Source: an uncultured Paraprevotella sp. (lineage in GTDB: Bacteria; Bacteroidota; Bacteroidia; Bacteroidales; Bacteroidaceae). Taken from it: a stretch of DNA of 41,997 bases. The notes below the pieces were generated by a model. That model saw only the letters and a list, made by a program, of their open reading frames with translations. It did not search any database and had not been told where the DNA came from. Position numbers and translations under genes: made by a program. Numbering within the stretch: the first letter of the stretch is position 1; each line of letters starts with the position of its first letter. Shown here one piece after another: positions 12,042 to 18,254 of the stretch. The stretch covers positions 1-41,997 of the forward strand of contig CALUKY010000021.1 of NCBI GenBank assembly GCA_944321345.1. The letters are read 5' to 3'.

Positions 12042-14039
12042 ATGAGAAAGCTACTGTCACTGATATTTTGGACAGCGGGACCGGGTATGTGCCTGGCCGG
12101 TCCGCTTGACCTTTTGGTAAAACGAATTGCCCCTGGAAACGAGAAACATTTCCAGTTTGTTCTGGAACCCGGAAAAAACAAACGGAACTATTTTGAAATT
12201 TCCAGCTACAAGGAACGTATCCGCATCAAAGGAAACTCCTACGTCAGTATGGCAAGCGGACTGGACTGGTATCTGAAAAATTACTGCGGCGTGTCCTATA
12301 TCCACAGCGACAGTACCCTCCAGTTACCAAAAGTGTTGCCCATCCCTCAGGAACGGACCTATAAGGAAACCCACCTGCAAATCGGCTACACGGGATATGA
12401 TGCCTGGCAAAGACTGTTCTGGAACTGGGAGGACTGGGAAAAGGAAATAGACCGCATGGCGCTCAGCGGTATCAATGTATGCCCGGTATGGACCGGCAGA
12501 GAGAGTGTGTGGAAAGAATTTCTTTCTGAATATAATATGAGCGAACAGGAAATAAACCGGTACCTCTTCGGTACGGAGCAAGCTCCCAAAAGCTGGATAA
12601 AAGGACAGGAAAACCTGCAGAAGAAAATCGTCAAAAGAATGCAGAATCTGGGAATGTACCCTGTTTATCCGGCATTTGCCGGCACTGTTCCCGAGAATCT
12701 GACAAAGAGAGAAAACCATATCATTACCATTCCGGCCCATACAGCCGAAAATATCAGCCGAAAAGAAACAATCATCAGTACCGAGGATCCTATATTTGCC
12801 AAAATGGCAAAAAAATGGTATGACAGCTATGAGAACATATACGGTACAACAGCCTTCTATCAGGGAAGTACAAACGGACAGGATTTTCCGTCCGACATTC
12901 AGGAATGTCTTTTGAAAAGTCTTCCGGACGCCAACTGGATCATATCCGCCAACACCGAAATCCCCCAAAAAACAAAAACAGAAGGAATAGACAAACAAAA
13001 AGCCGTTTTACTATACTCTGCCAACGATGGTAGCTGGAAAAACCAGGAGGAAACCAAAGTCATTCCCTGGATCTGGACCTGGCATGAAACTTCTGCCGAC
13101 AAGAATCTGACGATATCTTTACATGAGGCTCTGAATCAGCCGGAACAGGCCAGTAACCATCCGGAAACAGCCTCAAAGATCCAAGGTATCGGAACATGGA
13201 CTCCGTATATTCAAACCAACCCTTTGTCTTACAGTCTGATCAACAACAGGCGATGGCAACCGGAAATGATTTCCCTCCAGGAAGAAATCGAACAGATTCT
13301 GAAAATACGCTACGGCCATTGCAATACGAAAATACTTCAGGCCTGGATACGACTGACAGATCTGGATCAGGGATACGATCCGAATTGCAGTTTCCTTTGC
13401 CGGAAACCAGCCATGAACCTCCTGGACCAGACAGCAGACAGTATCTCAAAACAAGCGGCATACAGTCAGCAGATTTCTGAAATTCTGACAGACCTGCTAA
13501 GCATCAAGGATCACTGCTCCAAGAACAAGAACTACCGTAACGATCTGATCCGCATCACAGCCATGCTGCTCGAACAGAAAAGTTGCGCCCTTTATCTGAA
13601 AATCGAAAATGATTTCGCAGAGCGGAACATGTCCTCACTGACACAGCACCAAAAAGACTTCATGCACCTGATTCATCTTGCAGACAGCCTGCGTTCCTAT
13701 AATCCGGACTTGTGCTGGGGTCATTGGGTGAAACAGGCTGACGAGAATCAGAAAAGTAAAGAAACCGGTGGAGTCATCTGGTATAAATCCCTGCTCCGAC
13801 AACAGGAACAGATCAGTGGACAGGTACCGGCCCTAAGTGGAATTTTAGCAGAGTTCTGCGCACCGCGTTGGGAACTGTTTTTCAATTGGATGAACCGCAA
13901 AATAAGTCTCGGACAGATTGCTGCACCGCAATATCAAGGTCTGGATGATGCCTGGTACCAACAGTCGGAAAATGAAACGGCAATAGTAGAATCATCTTCT
14001 GACATTTATCAAATTATCACCGAATCCATGAATTTATAA
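12042..14039 (+). CDS. GH89 alpha-N-acetylglucosaminidase-like protein, catalytic residues apparently lost
   Basis: 665 residues with a signal peptide (cleavage near CLAG, residue 20), so exported. It follows the NAGLU/GH89 fold: N-terminal domain ending SGLDWYLKNYCGVSYI (72-87), the barrel start DAWQRLFWNWEDWEKEIDRMALSGINV (120-146) and VWTGRESVWKEFL (149-161), then MYPVYPAFAGTVPENL (205-220) and TEDPIFAKM (247-255), with an all-helical C-terminus to APRWELFFNWM. Where active GH89 enzymes have the acid/base in YGADTFNEM (human E316), this protein has YGTTAFYQG, giving Q274. Where they have the nucleophile in the M-x-PEGI/MEGI motif (human E446), it has GTWTPYIQT (P388). The conserved histidine/glycine-rich loop after the IW motif is also replaced (IWTWHETSADKN). 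It is probably a non-catalytic glycan-binding relative or a decaying enzyme. Human numbering is from memory. Confidence 0.75.
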   Translation: MRKLLSLIFWTAGPGMCLAGPLDLLVKRIAPGNEKHFQFVLEPGKNKRNYFEISSYKERIRIKGNSYVSMASGLDWYLKNYCGVSYIHSDSTLQLPKVLPIPQERTYKETHLQIGYTGYDAWQRLFWNWEDWEKEIDRMALSGINVCPVWTGRESVWKEFLSEYNMSEQEINRYLFGTEQAPKSWIKGQENLQKKIVKRMQNLGMYPVYPAFAGTVPENLTKRENHIITIPAHTAENISRKETIISTEDPIFAKMAKKWYDSYENIYGTTAFYQGSTNGQDFPSDIQECLLKSLPDANWIISANTEIPQKTKTEGIDKQKAVLLYSANDGSWKNQEETKVIPWIWTWHETSADKNLTISLHEALNQPEQASNHPETASKIQGIGTWTPYIQTNPLSYSLINNRRWQPEMISLQEEIEQILKIRYGHCNTKILQAWIRLTDLDQGYDPNCSFLCRKPAMNLLDQTADSISKQAAYSQQISEILTDLLSIKDHCSKNKNYRNDLIRITAMLLEQKSCALYLKIENDFAERNMSSLTQHQKDFMHLIHLADSLRSYNPDLCWGHWVKQADENQKSKETGGVIWYKSLLRQQEQISGQVPALSGILAEFCAPRWELFFNWMNRKISLGQIAAPQYQGLDDAWYQQSENETAIVESSSDIYQIITESMNL

Positions 14040-14118
14040 CTAAAATGTCATGGTTTCTATATAATAATGTAGTATCTGACAGAAAACTAAATTTTGCGCA
14101 AAAAAAAAGTTCATTTTA

Positions 14119-14149
14119 TTGGCGAAGAAAAAATTTTTATATACTTTTG
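14119..14149 (+). promoter_or_regulatory. Promoter of the aromatic amino-acid operon
   Basis: TTGG at 14119-14122 and TACTTTTG (TAnnTTTG) at 14142-14149, 20 bp between TTG and the -7 box. It precedes the leader peptide at 14175 by 25 bp. Confidence 0.7.
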
Positions 14150-14174
14150 CATCAAACAAGAAACGAACGACTAA

Positions 14175-14267
14175 ATGAAAGATTTATTTAATACATATTT
14201 TTATTTCTTCTTTTACTTTTACTTTAGCAATAAAGTGAAGCGGGAGTTCGTATGTATAAGTAAATAA
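14175..14267 (+). CDS. Phe/Tyr-rich leader peptide of the pheA operon
   Basis: A 30-codon ORF starting ATG at 14175 and ending TAA at 14265-14267. Residues 8-17 are YFYFFFYFYF, ten aromatic codons in a row; the whole peptide has eight Phe and four Tyr. It lies between the operon promoter and a hairpin terminator that precedes pheA, the arrangement of a ribosome-mediated attenuator. Phe and Tyr are the end products of the downstream genes (pheA, tyrA and the shared first step), so stalling at these codons when either charged tRNA is scarce would allow read-through. Frame, composition and position make chance occurrence very unlikely; expression has not been shown. Confidence 0.9.
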   Translation: MKDLFNTYFYFFFYFYFSNKVKREFVCISK

Positions 14268-14322
14268 AAGAACAACAGAATATAAACACATGAATCCCGC
14301 TTGCGTGCAAGCGGGATTTTTT
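14217..14322 (+). promoter_or_regulatory. Transcription attenuator (mutually exclusive hairpins)
   Basis: Four regions can be read. Region 1/2: ACTTTA (14221-14226), loop GCAA, TAAAGT (14231-14236), extendable to 14217-14240 with G.U pairs. Region 2: AAGCGGGA (14238-14245). Region 3: TCCCGCTT (14295-14302), complementary to both region 2 and region 4. Region 4: AAGCGGGA (14309-14316), identical to region 2. The 3:4 helix is the terminator; 2:3 is the antiterminator. Region 1 is the last part of the aromatic codon run, so a ribosome stalled there frees region 2. Confidence 0.88.
14293..14322 (+). terminator. Attenuator terminator upstream of pheA
   Basis: AATCCCGCTTG (14293-14303), loop CGTG, CAAGCGGGATT (14308-14318), an 11-bp perfect stem followed by TTTTTT (14317-14322). 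It is positioned 28 bp before the pheA start. Confidence 0.92.
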
Positions 14323-14349
14323 ATTAAAAAAAAACAGAAAACGAGAGAT

Positions 14350-15192
14350 ATGAAACGAATAGCAATACAAGGTATCAAAGGATCTTATCACGACATTGCA
14401 GCACACAAATTTTTCGAAGGCGAGGACATAGAACTGATCTGCTGTGCCACCTTTGAACAGGTATTCGAGGAACTGCGTAACGACAGCTCTGTAATCGGTA
14501 TGGCCGCTATTGAAAACACCATTGCTGGCAGCCTGTTGCACAACTACGAATTGCTGCGCGAAAGTGGTGCTACCATTGTTGGTGAGCACAAGCAGCGCAT
14601 CTCACACAGCATCATGTGTCTGCCGGAAGACAACTGGGAAGACATTCAGGAAGTGAACTCACATCCGGTCGCTCTGATGCAGTGCCGGGATTTTCTGAAT
14701 CACCATCCCAATATCAAGGTAGTCGAGGTGGAAGACACCGCCGGTGCCGCAGCCGCCATCAGCCAGCAACACAAACGTAGACATGCTGCCATCTGTTCCA
14801 AATTCGCCGCTCCTCTCTATGGAATGAAAATTCTGGAGGAAGGCATCGAAACCAACAAACACAATTTTACTCGTTTCCTTGTATTCTGCAATCCGCAGCG
14901 GGCCAATCTGCTCCGCGACATCCGCAAAACCAACAAAGCCAGCATCGTCTTTACCCTGGCACACGAGGAAGGTTCACTCTCACAGGTTTTGTCTATTTTC
15001 TCTTTCTACAAGCTGAACCTCACCAAAATTCAGTCTCTGCCCATTATCGGCAAGGAATGGCAATATATGTTTTATGTAGACCTGGCCTTTACCGACTACA
15101 CACGCTATTCACAAAGCATTGACGCCATAACCCCATTAACCCAGGAACTTAAAATATTAGGAGAATATATCGATGGAAAAGAATGTCTATAA
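14350..15192 (+). CDS. pheA: Prephenate dehydratase
   Basis: 280-residue monofunctional prephenate dehydratase, converting prephenate to phenylpyruvate for Phe synthesis. The catalytic domain has GIKGSYHDIAA (8-18), AAIENTIAGSLLHNYELL (52-69), and the T174-R175-F176 motif (NFTRFLVF). A C-terminal ACT domain (about 197-275, KASIVFTLAHEEGSLSQVLSIF) should mediate feedback by Phe. There is no chorismate mutase domain; that activity is fused to the DAHP synthase two genes later. An ATG at 14290 in the same frame lies inside the attenuator hairpin; MKRIAIQG at 14350, preceded by CGAGAGAT, is the true start. Its 3' end overlaps the aminotransferase gene by 20 bp. Confidence 0.96.
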   Translation: MKRIAIQGIKGSYHDIAAHKFFEGEDIELICCATFEQVFEELRNDSSVIGMAAIENTIAGSLLHNYELLRESGATIVGEHKQRISHSIMCLPEDNWEDIQEVNSHPVALMQCRDFLNHHPNIKVVEVEDTAGAAAAISQQHKRRHAAICSKFAAPLYGMKILEEGIETNKHNFTRFLVFCNPQRANLLRDIRKTNKASIVFTLAHEEGSLSQVLSIFSFYKLNLTKIQSLPIIGKEWQYMFYVDLAFTDYTRYSQSIDAITPLTQELKILGEYIDGKECL

Positions 15193-16360
15193 CACAAATA
15201 TAAAACCGGCCGACCGTCTGGCCTCTGTCAACGAATACTATTTCTCAAGAAAAGGAAAAGAAGTGGCCCGCATGAATGCCGAGGGCATGAACATCATCAG
15301 CCTGGCGATAGGAAGCCCCGATATGCCACCCTCACCACAAACTATCGAAACCCTGTGTGAACAGGCACGCCGTGACGACGTACACGGATATCAGCCCACA
15401 GTGGGCATTCCGGAACTGCGCCGTGCCATGGCCGGTTTCTATCAGAAATGGTATGGTGTGGATCTGGATCCGCAGACTGAAATCCAACCGCTCATCGGCT
15501 CTAAGGAAGGAATCCTGCATGTCACACTGGCTTTTGTCAATCCGGGCGATCAGGTACTGGTGCCCAATCCGGGTTATCCTACCTACACTTCTCTGAGCCG
15601 CATTCTGGGAGCGGAGATTGTCAACTACGATCTGACTCCGGAAAACGGATGGCAACCGGATTTCGAAGCCTTGGAGCGCATGGATCTGAGCCGCGTGAAA
15701 CTGATGTGGACCAACTATCCCAACATGCCGACCGGTGCCAACGCCCAGATGGAAACTTATCAGAAACTGGTGGACTTTGCCCAGCGCCACAGCATCATCG
15801 TGGTCAACGACAACCCGTACAGCTTCATCCTGAACCGCGAACACCGGAGCATTCTCCAGATACCGGGCGCCAAGAGCTGCTGCATCGAGTTCAACTCCAT
15901 GAGCAAGAGCCACAACATGCCGGGCTGGCGTGTGGGTATGCTCTCCACCAACGCTGAGTTCATCCGCTGGATTCTGAAGGTAAAGAGCAACATCGACTCC
16001 GGAACCTTCCGTCCGTTGCAGCTGGCTGCCGCAAAAGCGCTGGAGAATGATGCCGAATGGCACGACGAAGCCAATGTACAGGTATATGCCCGTCGCCGGG
16101 CTCTGGCCGAAGAGATTATGCGCACGCTGAACTGCTCTTTCGATCCGAATCAGGTGGGTATGTTCCTTTGGGGACGTATTCCGGACAGCTATCAGGATGT
16201 AGAAGAACTCACCGAAAAGGTACTTCACGAAGCCCGTGTATTCATCACGCCGGGGTTCATTTTCGGTTCAAACGGAAAGCGCTACATCCGCATTTCTCTC
16301 TGTGCCAAGGAAGACAAGATTGCCGAAGCACTGGAACGTATTAAAAAAGTATTCAAATAA
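15173..16360 (+). CDS. Class I/II PLP aminotransferase (aromatic/aspartate type)
   Basis: 395-residue fold type I aminotransferase. Seen: LAIGSPDMPPSP (44-55), HGYQPTVGIPELRRAM (71-86), VPNPGYPTYTS (130-140), WTNYPNMPTGA (179-189, the family NP-PTG site), NDNPYSF (212-218), the PLP lysine K245 in NSMSKSHNMPGWRVG with phosphate-contacting R253, and a C-terminal RISLC arginine for the substrate carboxylate. It resembles the LL-diaminopimelate/aspartate aminotransferase branch. In this operon the likely job is the final transamination of phenylpyruvate and 4-hydroxyphenylpyruvate to Phe and Tyr; this is from context, and specificity is untested. Start at 15173 lies inside the pheA end, suggesting translational coupling. 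Confidence 0.92.
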   Translation: MEKNVYNTNIKPADRLASVNEYYFSRKGKEVARMNAEGMNIISLAIGSPDMPPSPQTIETLCEQARRDDVHGYQPTVGIPELRRAMAGFYQKWYGVDLDPQTEIQPLIGSKEGILHVTLAFVNPGDQVLVPNPGYPTYTSLSRILGAEIVNYDLTPENGWQPDFEALERMDLSRVKLMWTNYPNMPTGANAQMETYQKLVDFAQRHSIIVVNDNPYSFILNREHRSILQIPGAKSCCIEFNSMSKSHNMPGWRVGMLSTNAEFIRWILKVKSNIDSGTFRPLQLAAAKALENDAEWHDEANVQVYARRRALAEEIMRTLNCSFDPNQVGMFLWGRIPDSYQDVEELTEKVLHEARVFITPGFIFGSNGKRYIRISLCAKEDKIAEALERIKKVFK

Positions 16361-16386: not shown

Positions 16387-17454
16387 ATGGAACTGAATTT
16401 AAAACCATTGAATTTACCGGGTTCTGACAGCAGACCCTTAGTGATAGCCGGCCCTTGCAGCGCCGAAACCGAAGAGCAGGTTATGGAAACCGCCAAAGCA
16501 TTGGCCAACAAAGGTATCAAGATATTCCGCGCCGGTGTATGGAAACCGCGTACCAAACCGGGAGGTTTCGAAGGTATGGGCGAAGAAGCTCTGCCCTGGC
16601 TGCAGCGTGTCAAGCAGGAAACCGGTATGCTGATCGGTACCGAGGTGGCAACTCCAAAACACGTGGAAGCAGCCTTGAATGCCGGACTGGATATGCTTTG
16701 GGTAGGCGCACGTACCTCGGCCAATCCGTTTGCCGTACAGGAGCTGGCGGATTCTCTGAAAGGCGTGGACATTCCGGTGTTCGTAAAGAATCCGGTCAAT
16801 CCGGACATTGAATTGTGGGTAGGTGCTTTGGAACGCATCAACGGAGCAGGCATCACCCGTCTGGCAGCCATCCACCGAGGCTTCTCCAGCATTGACCAGA
16901 AGCTGTACCGCAACGCACCGATGTGGCATATTCCTATCGAATTGCACCGTCGCTATCCGAACCTGCCGATCGTCTGCGACCCGAGCCATATCGGCGGACG
17001 CCGCGACTTGATTGCTCCACTGGCACAGCAGGCCATGGATATGGGATTCGAGGGACTTATCGTAGAGAGCCACTGCAACCCGGACTGCGCATGGAGCGAC
17101 GCCAAACAGCAGGTAATGCCGGACGTGCTGAACTTCATCCTGGACCGTCTGGTAGTACGTAACACCAAGGAAAGCACCGAAAGCCTGAACATTCTGCGCC
17201 AGCAGATTGACGAAATGGACAACCGTCTGATGGAACTGCTCACCAAGCGCATGCGCATCAGCCGCGAGATTGCCGCCTACAAGAAAGAACATAATATGGC
17301 AGTAGTACAGACTGCCCGTTACAGCGAAATTCTGGACAAGCGTGCCGCTCAGGGTGTGCTCTGCGGTATGGATGCCGACTTCATCAAGAGCATCTACGAG
17401 CATATCCACGAAGAGAGTGTACGCCAGCAGATGGAATTTATGAACAAACAGTAA
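16387..17454 (+). CDS. Bifunctional DAHP synthase / chorismate mutase
   Basis: 355-residue fusion. Residues about 1-260 are the type I-beta (KDO8P-synthase-like) 3-deoxy-D-arabino-heptulosonate 7-phosphate synthase: LVIAGPCSAETEE (18-30), IFRAGVWKPRTKPGGFEGMG (46-65), FVKNPVNPDIELWVGALERI, DPSHIGGRRDLI and VESHCNPDCAWSDAKQQ carrying the metal ligands. Residues about 262-355 are an AroQ-type chorismate mutase (LRQQIDEMDNRLMELLTKR, then IAAYKKEHNM and the IYEHIHEESVRQQ helix). It opens the shikimate pathway and also makes prephenate, the substrate of PheA and TyrA encoded on either side. In related fusions the mutase domain serves as the sensor of prephenate feedback; that is family knowledge. 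Confidence 0.96.
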   Translation: MELNLKPLNLPGSDSRPLVIAGPCSAETEEQVMETAKALANKGIKIFRAGVWKPRTKPGGFEGMGEEALPWLQRVKQETGMLIGTEVATPKHVEAALNAGLDMLWVGARTSANPFAVQELADSLKGVDIPVFVKNPVNPDIELWVGALERINGAGITRLAAIHRGFSSIDQKLYRNAPMWHIPIELHRRYPNLPIVCDPSHIGGRRDLIAPLAQQAMDMGFEGLIVESHCNPDCAWSDAKQQVMPDVLNFILDRLVVRNTKESTESLNILRQQIDEMDNRLMELLTKRMRISREIAAYKKEHNMAVVQTARYSEILDKRAAQGVLCGMDADFIKSIYEHIHEESVRQQMEFMNKQ

Positions 17455-17480: not shown

Positions 17481-18254
17481 ATGAGAATTTTGGTTTTAGG
17501 TGCCGGTAAGATGGGCTCGTTTTTTGTAGATTTATTGAGCTTTGAACATGAAACAGCTGTATATGAAGTTGATCCGAAACGGTTGCGCTTCATGTATAAC
17601 ACCCAGCGTTTCACTTCACTCGATGAAATCGATGCCTTCGACCCGGAACTGGTCATCAATGCCGTGACATTGAAGTACACGCTCGACGTGTTCCGTCAGG
17701 TCATTCCCCATCTGTCCAAGGACTGCATCATCAGCGACATTTCGTCCGTAAAAACCGGATTCAAGGAATTTTACGAAGAAACCGGCATGCGCTATGTCAG
17801 CACCCACCCTATGTTTGGTCCTACATTCGCCAATCTGGGTGCGCTGAGTCAGGAGAATGCCATCATCATCAACGAAGGAGATTATATGGGACGCATCTTT
17901 TTCCGCGACCTGTATAGCCGCTTGGGACTGAATATCTGTGAATACTCATTCCAGGGACACGATGAAACCATGTCCTATTCCCTGAGTATTCCTTTCGTTT
18001 CCACCTTCGTCTTTGCTGCGGTCATGAAGCACCAGGACGCTCCGGGTACTACCTTCAAGCGCCACTTGCAGATTGCCCGTGGCGTTTTGGGTGAGGACGA
18101 CTGTCTGTTGCGTGAAATCCTGTACAATCCAAAGACCAAGGATCAGGTGGAGCAGATTCGTCAAGAACTCAAGGAACTGATCGACATCATCAGTTCTCAT
18201 GATGAAGAGGCCATGAAGCATTACCTCACCAAAATTCGGGAAAACATCAAATAA
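17481..18254 (+). CDS. tyrA: Prephenate dehydrogenase
   Basis: 257-residue NAD(P)-dependent prephenate dehydrogenase, yielding 4-hydroxyphenylpyruvate for Tyr. Rossmann fold at the N-terminus with GAGKMG (7-12), acidic strand end AVYEVDPKR, then SDISSVKTGF and the active-site STHPMFGPTF (His of the HPM motif) and a helical dimerisation domain (HDETMSYSLSIPFVSTFVFAAV). It lacks both a fused chorismate mutase and a C-terminal ACT domain, so Tyr feedback, if any, would act elsewhere. Last gene of the operon; gap of 26 bp from the DAHP synthase and a terminator 30 bp after the stop. Confidence 0.95.
   Translation: MRILVLGAGKMGSFFVDLLSFEHETAVYEVDPKRLRFMYNTQRFTSLDEIDAFDPELVINAVTLKYTLDVFRQVIPHLSKDCIISDISSVKTGFKEFYEETGMRYVSTHPMFGPTFANLGALSQENAIIINEGDYMGRIFFRDLYSRLGLNICEYSFQGHDETMSYSLSIPFVSTFVFAAVMKHQDAPGTTFKRHLQIARGVLGEDDCLLREILYNPKTKDQVEQIRQELKELIDIISSHDEEAMKHYLTKIRENIK

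Follow-up and report, generated by a model that had tools for sequence, protein, structure and literature searches.

A putative Phe/Tyr-sensing transcription attenuator conserved upstream of pheA in Bacteroidia

The pheA operon of an uncultured Paraprevotella sp. is preceded by a leader that very probably acts as a ribosome-mediated transcription attenuator sensing both phenylalanine and tyrosine, and strong comparative support suggests that its RNA represents a new, widely distributed family of this known kind of element. The analysis covered a 41,997-nucleotide stretch of DNA (hereafter the window), the closest named record to which is Candidatus Paraprevotella stercoravium (pheA 99% identical). 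A promoter, a leader ORF and a terminator lie between the end of the upstream gene at 14039 and the start of pheA at 14350 (Table 1). Downstream of pheA are genes for an aminotransferase, a DAHP synthase fused to chorismate mutase, and tyrA, and with these genes the operon is expected to produce Phe as well as Tyr.

Table 1. Features of the pheA locus; positions count from the first nucleotide of the window.
Feature	Position	Strand	Basis
Bacteroidetes-type promoter: TTGG 14119-14122, TACTTTTG (TAnnTTTG) 14142-14149	14119-14149	+	Sequence
Leader peptide ORF MKDLFNTYFYFFFYFYFSNKVKREFVCISK, 30 codons; ten consecutive Phe/Tyr codons (YFYFFFYFYF) 14196-14225	14175-14267	+	ORF present; aromatic run conserved
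Region 1, last Phe/Tyr codons; predicted partner 14231-14240	14217-14226	+	Predicted hairpin -7.0 kcal/mol; synonymous near-fixation
Region 2, antiterminator 5′ strand; core AAGCGGGA 14238-14245, predicted extension to 14255	14238-14255	+	Covariation, per-sequence pairing, folding
Region 3 with predicted extension; core TCCCGCTT 14295-14302	14286-14302	+	Antiterminator 3′ strand; core is terminator 5′ arm
Intrinsic terminator 3:4 and T-run; stem 14292-14319, region 4 core AAGCGGGA 14309-14316	14292-14323	+	Sequence, covariation, terminator scan
pheA, prephenate dehydratase	14350-15192	+	PF00800, E 2.6e-56
Aminotransferase class I/II	15173-16360	+	PF00155
DAHP synthase fused to chorismate mutase	16387-17454	+	PF00793 and PF01817
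tyrA, prephenate dehydrogenase	17481-18254	+	PF02153; best NCBIfam match prephenate dehydrogenase, under its cut-off

According to the model, RNA polymerase would start at the promoter and a ribosome would follow on the leader ORF. Were charged tRNA-Phe or tRNA-Tyr scarce, the ribosome would stall within the ten-codon aromatic run with its front edge just before region 2 and with region 1 covered, allowing region 2 to pair with region 3 as it emerges. Formation of this 2:3 antiterminator would prevent the 3:4 terminator from forming, and the Phe/Tyr operon would be transcribed. With both amino acids plentiful, the ribosome would pass over region 2 to the stop codon, and region 3 would be left free to pair with region 4, thereby ending transcription.

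The ORF of the original prediction, 30 codons long with an unbroken series of ten aromatic codons, was confirmed. The best ATG-initiated ORF in 5000 dinucleotide shuffles of positions 14040-14349 contained at most seven aromatic residues per 12 codons, compared with ten in the real leader. DNA upstream of pheA was then gathered from 235 loci (some genomes occur twice), and an ORF with at least 8/12 aromatic residues (Phe, Tyr or Trp) was found in 195 of the 230 regions that have at least 250 nt upstream, compared with 2 of 2300 shuffles; 21 of the 230 contained fewer than 6/12. At a cut-off of 6/12 and at least 120 nt of upstream DNA a leader was detected at 212 of the 235 loci, and dropping 28 identical copies left 184 unique leaders. 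These comprise 138 from the family (80 named loci, taken by title and a pheA identity of at least 72%, together with family members from a genome search) and 46 from outside it. Phe and Tyr both occur in the best 12 residues of nearly every leader (137/138 family, 43/46 other), four leaders having Phe only and none having Tyr only by this measure, and Trp occurs there in 17/138 and 13/46, respectively.

Elsewhere in the same order a leader was present at 27 of 28 loci, the remaining locus being without upstream DNA (drawn from 33 genomes with a pheA match; 44 of 79 genomes of the order had none). Beyond the order but within the class the count was 17 of 18 loci (20 matched genomes), and in other classes of the same phylum it was 2 of 11 (67 matched genomes). 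The element is not peculiar to the window organism and precedes nearly all of the same-class and same-order pheA genes examined; Phe/Tyr leader attenuation would be placed before nearly all Bacteroidia pheA examined, gut genera included, at a site where every Rfam family scores below threshold.

A covariance model (R1) was built from the family leader alignment. Within the window's own genome it gave one strong match, at the pheA leader, and otherwise weak ones (best E 0.04), one of which, on contig C1, was rejected because no aromatic leader was seen by eye. Across 151 family genomes, R1 matched somewhere in all 122 with a close pheA (identity at least 61%) and in one (G099) of the remaining 29, where pheA is divergent (16) or absent (13); because the training set of R1 included leaders from many of the same genomes, the positives are partly built in, which does not apply to the absences, eight of which were deduced from the list of positives. 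A second R1 match in one genome (G402; E 0.006) adjoins the end of another gene and looks like chance. One genome of the same genus (G010, 99% complete) yielded no match to either pheA or R1, possibly through loss of the whole operon.

A promoter had also been proposed ahead of the leader ORF, and the one found there is of the Bacteroidetes type, combining TTGG with TAnnTTTG, which we take to be the Bacteroidetes promoter motif; a scan of the window gave no sigma-70 site at the pheA leader promoter. TAnnTTTG lies at most 110 nt from the leader ATG in 133/136 family and 31/45 other leaders (6% in simple shuffles), that is, 5′ of 164 of the 181 leaders with at least 60 nt of upstream DNA. A Shine-Dalgarno-like pattern 5′ of the leader ATG was found in none of the 138 family leaders. 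If the mechanism operates as proposed, transcription and translation would be tightly coupled in bacteria whose leader ORFs show no Shine-Dalgarno sequence.

The core of the proposed switch is the identity of regions 2 and 4 and their shared complementarity to region 3, which was confirmed as originally described. The terminator comprises 12 pairs and a loop of four, with a T-run after it, and three overlapping terminator-like matches were scored (both strands counted) compared with a shuffled mean of 0.1. The predicted antiterminator, formed by approximately 14238-14255 with 14286-14302, is longer than first described, and antiterminator and terminator are mutually exclusive in their predicted pairing. 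Their predicted strengths are alike (family medians -20.3 and -18.6 kcal/mol; window -20.7 and -18.2 kcal/mol). The stretch after region 2 (14246-14257; family consensus approximately GTTGTGTGT), which forms the predicted antiterminator extension, is conserved whether it is translated or not.

Covariation in helices 2:3 and 3:4, anticipated in the original prediction, was evident when 126 family leaders, none of them more than 95% alike, were aligned. Helix 2:3 was paired in 90.7% of cells (slid versions at most 53.0%) and contained 67 double-change cells compared with 29.6 in shuffles (0/500); the corresponding values for helix 3:4 were 93.2% (at most 59.4%) and 73 compared with 29.4 (0/500). 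Three measures were unexceptional: further pair types in 2:3 (67/500 shuffles) and, in 3:4, covarying pairs (36/500) and further pair types (57/500). The other measures can be inflated by relatedness of the alignment rows. RNAalifold applied to the same alignment gave 3:4 on the full RNA and 2:3 once the RNA was cut before region 4. Leader by leader, pairing of the spacer with region 3 exceeded that of dinucleotide-shuffled spacers at p≤0.05 in 132/135 family and 39/46 other leaders (109 and 29 at p≤0.01), three of the 138 family leaders having no terminator by the per-sequence method. Among the matches listed, the letters of regions 2, 3 and 4 differ in non-family leaders and are mostly still complementary. 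Both the aromatic codons and the alternative pairing are conserved among relatives.

The part assigned to region 1 fared less well. It does lie within the Phe/Tyr codons, but it had been paired with region 2, and because its predicted partner is 14231-14240 the overlap with region 2 is only 3 nt. The run ends in four codons that are near-fixed as TAC TTT TAC TTT in the 138 family leaders: counting back from the end, TTT accounts for 134/134 Phe, TAC for 132/132 Tyr, TTT for 124/128 Phe and TAC for 114/130 Tyr, and at codons 6-11 from the end the synonyms are mixed. This near-fixation fits a base-pairing duty of region 1. Helix 1:2 was paired in 92.0% of cells and contained three double-change cells compared with 2.1 in shuffles (171/500), meaning that covariation is absent, and since side 1 of the helix barely varies covariation is uninformative there. 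The predicted hairpin beat shuffled flanks (p≤0.05) in only 83/135 family and 12/46 other leaders. On average 23% of synonymous versions of the last five codons folded better than the real ones (126 and 34 leaders), a comparison that is weak evidence because ties were not separated. RNAalifold returned 1:2 in the 73 late-stop rows only, and it was absent from the alignment of all 126 and from that of the 53 early-stop rows. Helix 1:2 thus retains the fixed synonymous codons and, in part, folding in its favour, but not covariation.

The spacing of the leader is suited to a ribosome acting as the sensor. Region 2 begins approximately 12 nt downstream of the final aromatic codon, just beyond the expected front edge of a ribosome stalled there, which would not cover it; the median distance is 11-12 nt for family leaders and 10-11 nt for the others. 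An occlusion model was applied in which a stalled ribosome blocks 27 nt and a ribosome at the stop codon 30 nt, this footprint being assumed. When the ribosome was placed on the final aromatic codon, the pairing probability P(2:3) was at least 0.5 in 133/135 family leaders; outside the family this held for 13/17 early-stop and 26/29 later-stop leaders. Family leaders show two architectures, with the stop codon either 6-15 nt past the run (53 leaders) or 21-54 nt past it (82 leaders; one at 21, the rest at least 27). With the ribosome at the stop codon, P(2:3) was at least 0.5 in 0/53 family leaders of the first kind (stop at most 15 nt past the run) and in 35/82 of the second (more than 15 nt), and in 0/17 early-stop and 4/29 later-stop leaders outside the family. 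The window leader has the second architecture, with its stop 39 nt past the run, and as P(2:3) is 0.60 in the model with the ribosome there, termination at this leader would need transit timing, helix 1:2 or a larger footprint.

The state without a ribosome raises an alternative, which we consider possible but doubtful: that the system is on by default, helices 1:2 and 2:3 stacking in the absence of a ribosome and thereby making the antiterminator the ground state, with the terminator forming only when a ribosome sweeps over or covers region 2. When the ribosome-free window RNA was folded up to region 3, the short 1:2 hairpin and 2:3 were indeed predicted together (P 0.83), and 2:3 reached P≥0.5 in 58/82 later-stop family leaders. 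However, it did so in only 13/53 early-stop family leaders, and the full-length window RNA, including region 4, folds as the terminator with a large upstream structure; moreover, these calculations describe equilibrium rather than kinetics. Because 1:2 and 2:3 are predicted to coexist without a ribosome, the original statement that the full enterobacterial logic is present was too strong. Attenuation by a ribosome on one leader sensing both Phe and Tyr is supported, as far as comparison of sequences can take it, by conservation, covariation of 2:3 and 3:4, spacing, and the match between codons and products.

Two further explanations were weighed against attenuation. A functional role for the leader ORF product as a small hydrophobic protein, alongside an ordinary terminator, would account for the strong conservation of the peptide, but it is highly improbable given that Phe and Tyr swap at many positions, that N-termini and lengths differ between leaders, that the stop codon is placed either early or past region 2, and that region 2 is conserved also in leaders where it is untranslated. 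Control of the same terminator independently of the peptide, for example by a riboswitch, a T-box or a protein-bound antiterminator, could draw on the structured 5′ region (z -4.26), yet we regard it as very unlikely, as no Rfam family reached its gathering threshold in the window, no T-box was among the Rfam matches at the locus, RNAalifold found no helix in the family alignment besides 1:2, 2:3 and 3:4, and the aromatic codons would go unexplained.

Operons that have been split allow the codons to be compared with the product. In one related genus, R1 matched at E≤0.01 in 119 of 139 genomes, and comparing the places of the matches located a leader directly before the aminotransferase gene in 14 genomes. 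Among the 151 family genomes, the leader precedes the aminotransferase gene and not pheA in G055 and G146. In G146 MISQQNAYYYSYYYFTQKR occupies this second position and pheA is without a clear leader. G093 has MYNTSASFFSNFFFVFTWRR as its pheA leader and, past an inserted trp-like cluster, MQQLNAYVYSYYYFTLTR as another leader in front of the aminotransferase-DAHP synthase-tyrA genes. Such a trp-like gene cluster (names by eye) lies between pheA and aminotransferase-DAHP synthase-tyrA in two genomes (L253, L254). The Tyr share of Phe plus Tyr averages 71% in the 14 aminotransferase leaders compared with 54% in 27 pheA-first leaders (26 of the related genus and the window, with five loci excluded because no leader was detected in them; 0/20000 permutations), a shift that amounts to approximately one event because one supported group contains 12 of the 14, together with two pheA-first rows, and the remaining two resemble their pheA-first neighbours. 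The tree itself contains five changes of gene order, at least three of them forced by supported branches. Three genomes carry both leaders, and in their pheA leaders the run has Phe but lacks Tyr (L254), contains a single Tyr (L325) or contains two Tyr outnumbered by Phe (L327). Leaders of split operons match their codons to the product, being Tyr-rich before the aminotransferase gene and Phe-rich before pheA, mostly within one clade, and would allow Phe-leaning and Tyr-leaning sensors to be tested in pairs.

Phe-rich leaders (FFSFFFFYF) were also observed in two genomes before an operon with porin-like and phenylacetate-CoA ligase-like genes (L251, from 1450; L330, minus strand), the ligase-like gene of L251 scoring 553.6 bits against a PaaK cut-off of 646.3. 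Phenylacetate is a plausible route to Phe, and these leaders plausibly control Phe made from it. An all-Tyr tract, MKFNVTSYYYYYYRT (YYYYYY), precedes a phenylacetate-CoA ligase-like gene on the minus strand of G099 (L255), a genome without a pheA match, and does not fit a simple Phe rule for ligase operons. We lean slightly towards an ancestral, class-wide Bacteroidia aromatic attenuator whose codon tract has been rewritten for each operon: mixed Phe/Tyr before the joint operon, mostly Tyr before aminotransferase-DAHP synthase-tyrA alone, and mostly Phe before an isolated pheA or a phenylacetate-CoA ligase operon. If true, this would provide a natural mutational series for codon-specific sensing.

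In Flavobacterium psychrophilum, the available part of PMC9723704 describes a structured 5′ element upstream of pheA that is common to other Flavobacteriaceae genera and, as a separate point, strong hints of leader-peptide attenuation ahead of amino-acid operons; that part contains neither a Phe/Tyr leader sequence nor an analysis of pairing or of wider distribution. Long 5′ UTRs of B. thetaiotaomicron contain sORFs reminiscent of leader peptides, according to the accessible text of PMC7366714. No description of a Phe/Tyr leader in Bacteroidetes was found in the literature available in part, including PMC9723704, PMC2864571, PMC7366714 and PMC4833913; Lopatovskaya et al. (2010) and Lyubetsky et al. 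(2007) may hold predictions for this group.

Bacteroid-trp (RF01692), tabulated as cis-reg 'y' in the portion available of Weinberg et al. (2010; PMC2864571), did not match at the pheA leader. It did score above its cut-off elsewhere in the same genome (contig C14, 53356-53501), before a trpB-like gene (name by eye), where the leader MNMNKNTYWWWRYSELKRS contains Trp-Trp-Trp; the Bacteroid-trp element is apparently the Trp counterpart of the pheA leader in the same genome and phylum, and a separate family. Runs of five His codons occur at three places in this genome, none of them, by eye, in a his-operon leader.

The best sub-threshold Rfam match at the locus was Phe_leader (RF01859), with 30.9 bits against a gathering threshold of 55 (E 0.0015). 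It exceeded its cut-off in 0/41 relatives, and weak matches to it are widespread, occurring also in 12/14 control genomes; apart from Phe_leader and Trp_leader, the sub-threshold matches were attributed to chance. Phe_leader is presumably the enterobacterial type, with a Phe-codon leader peptide and competing antiterminator and terminator, features which the window leader shares. In contrast to Phe_leader, the window leader mixes Phe and Tyr codons, and its operon also makes Tyr. Leaders that sense several end products at once are known from the thr and ilv operons, and the pheA leader would resemble these in responding to more than one product, with other amino acids as the signal.
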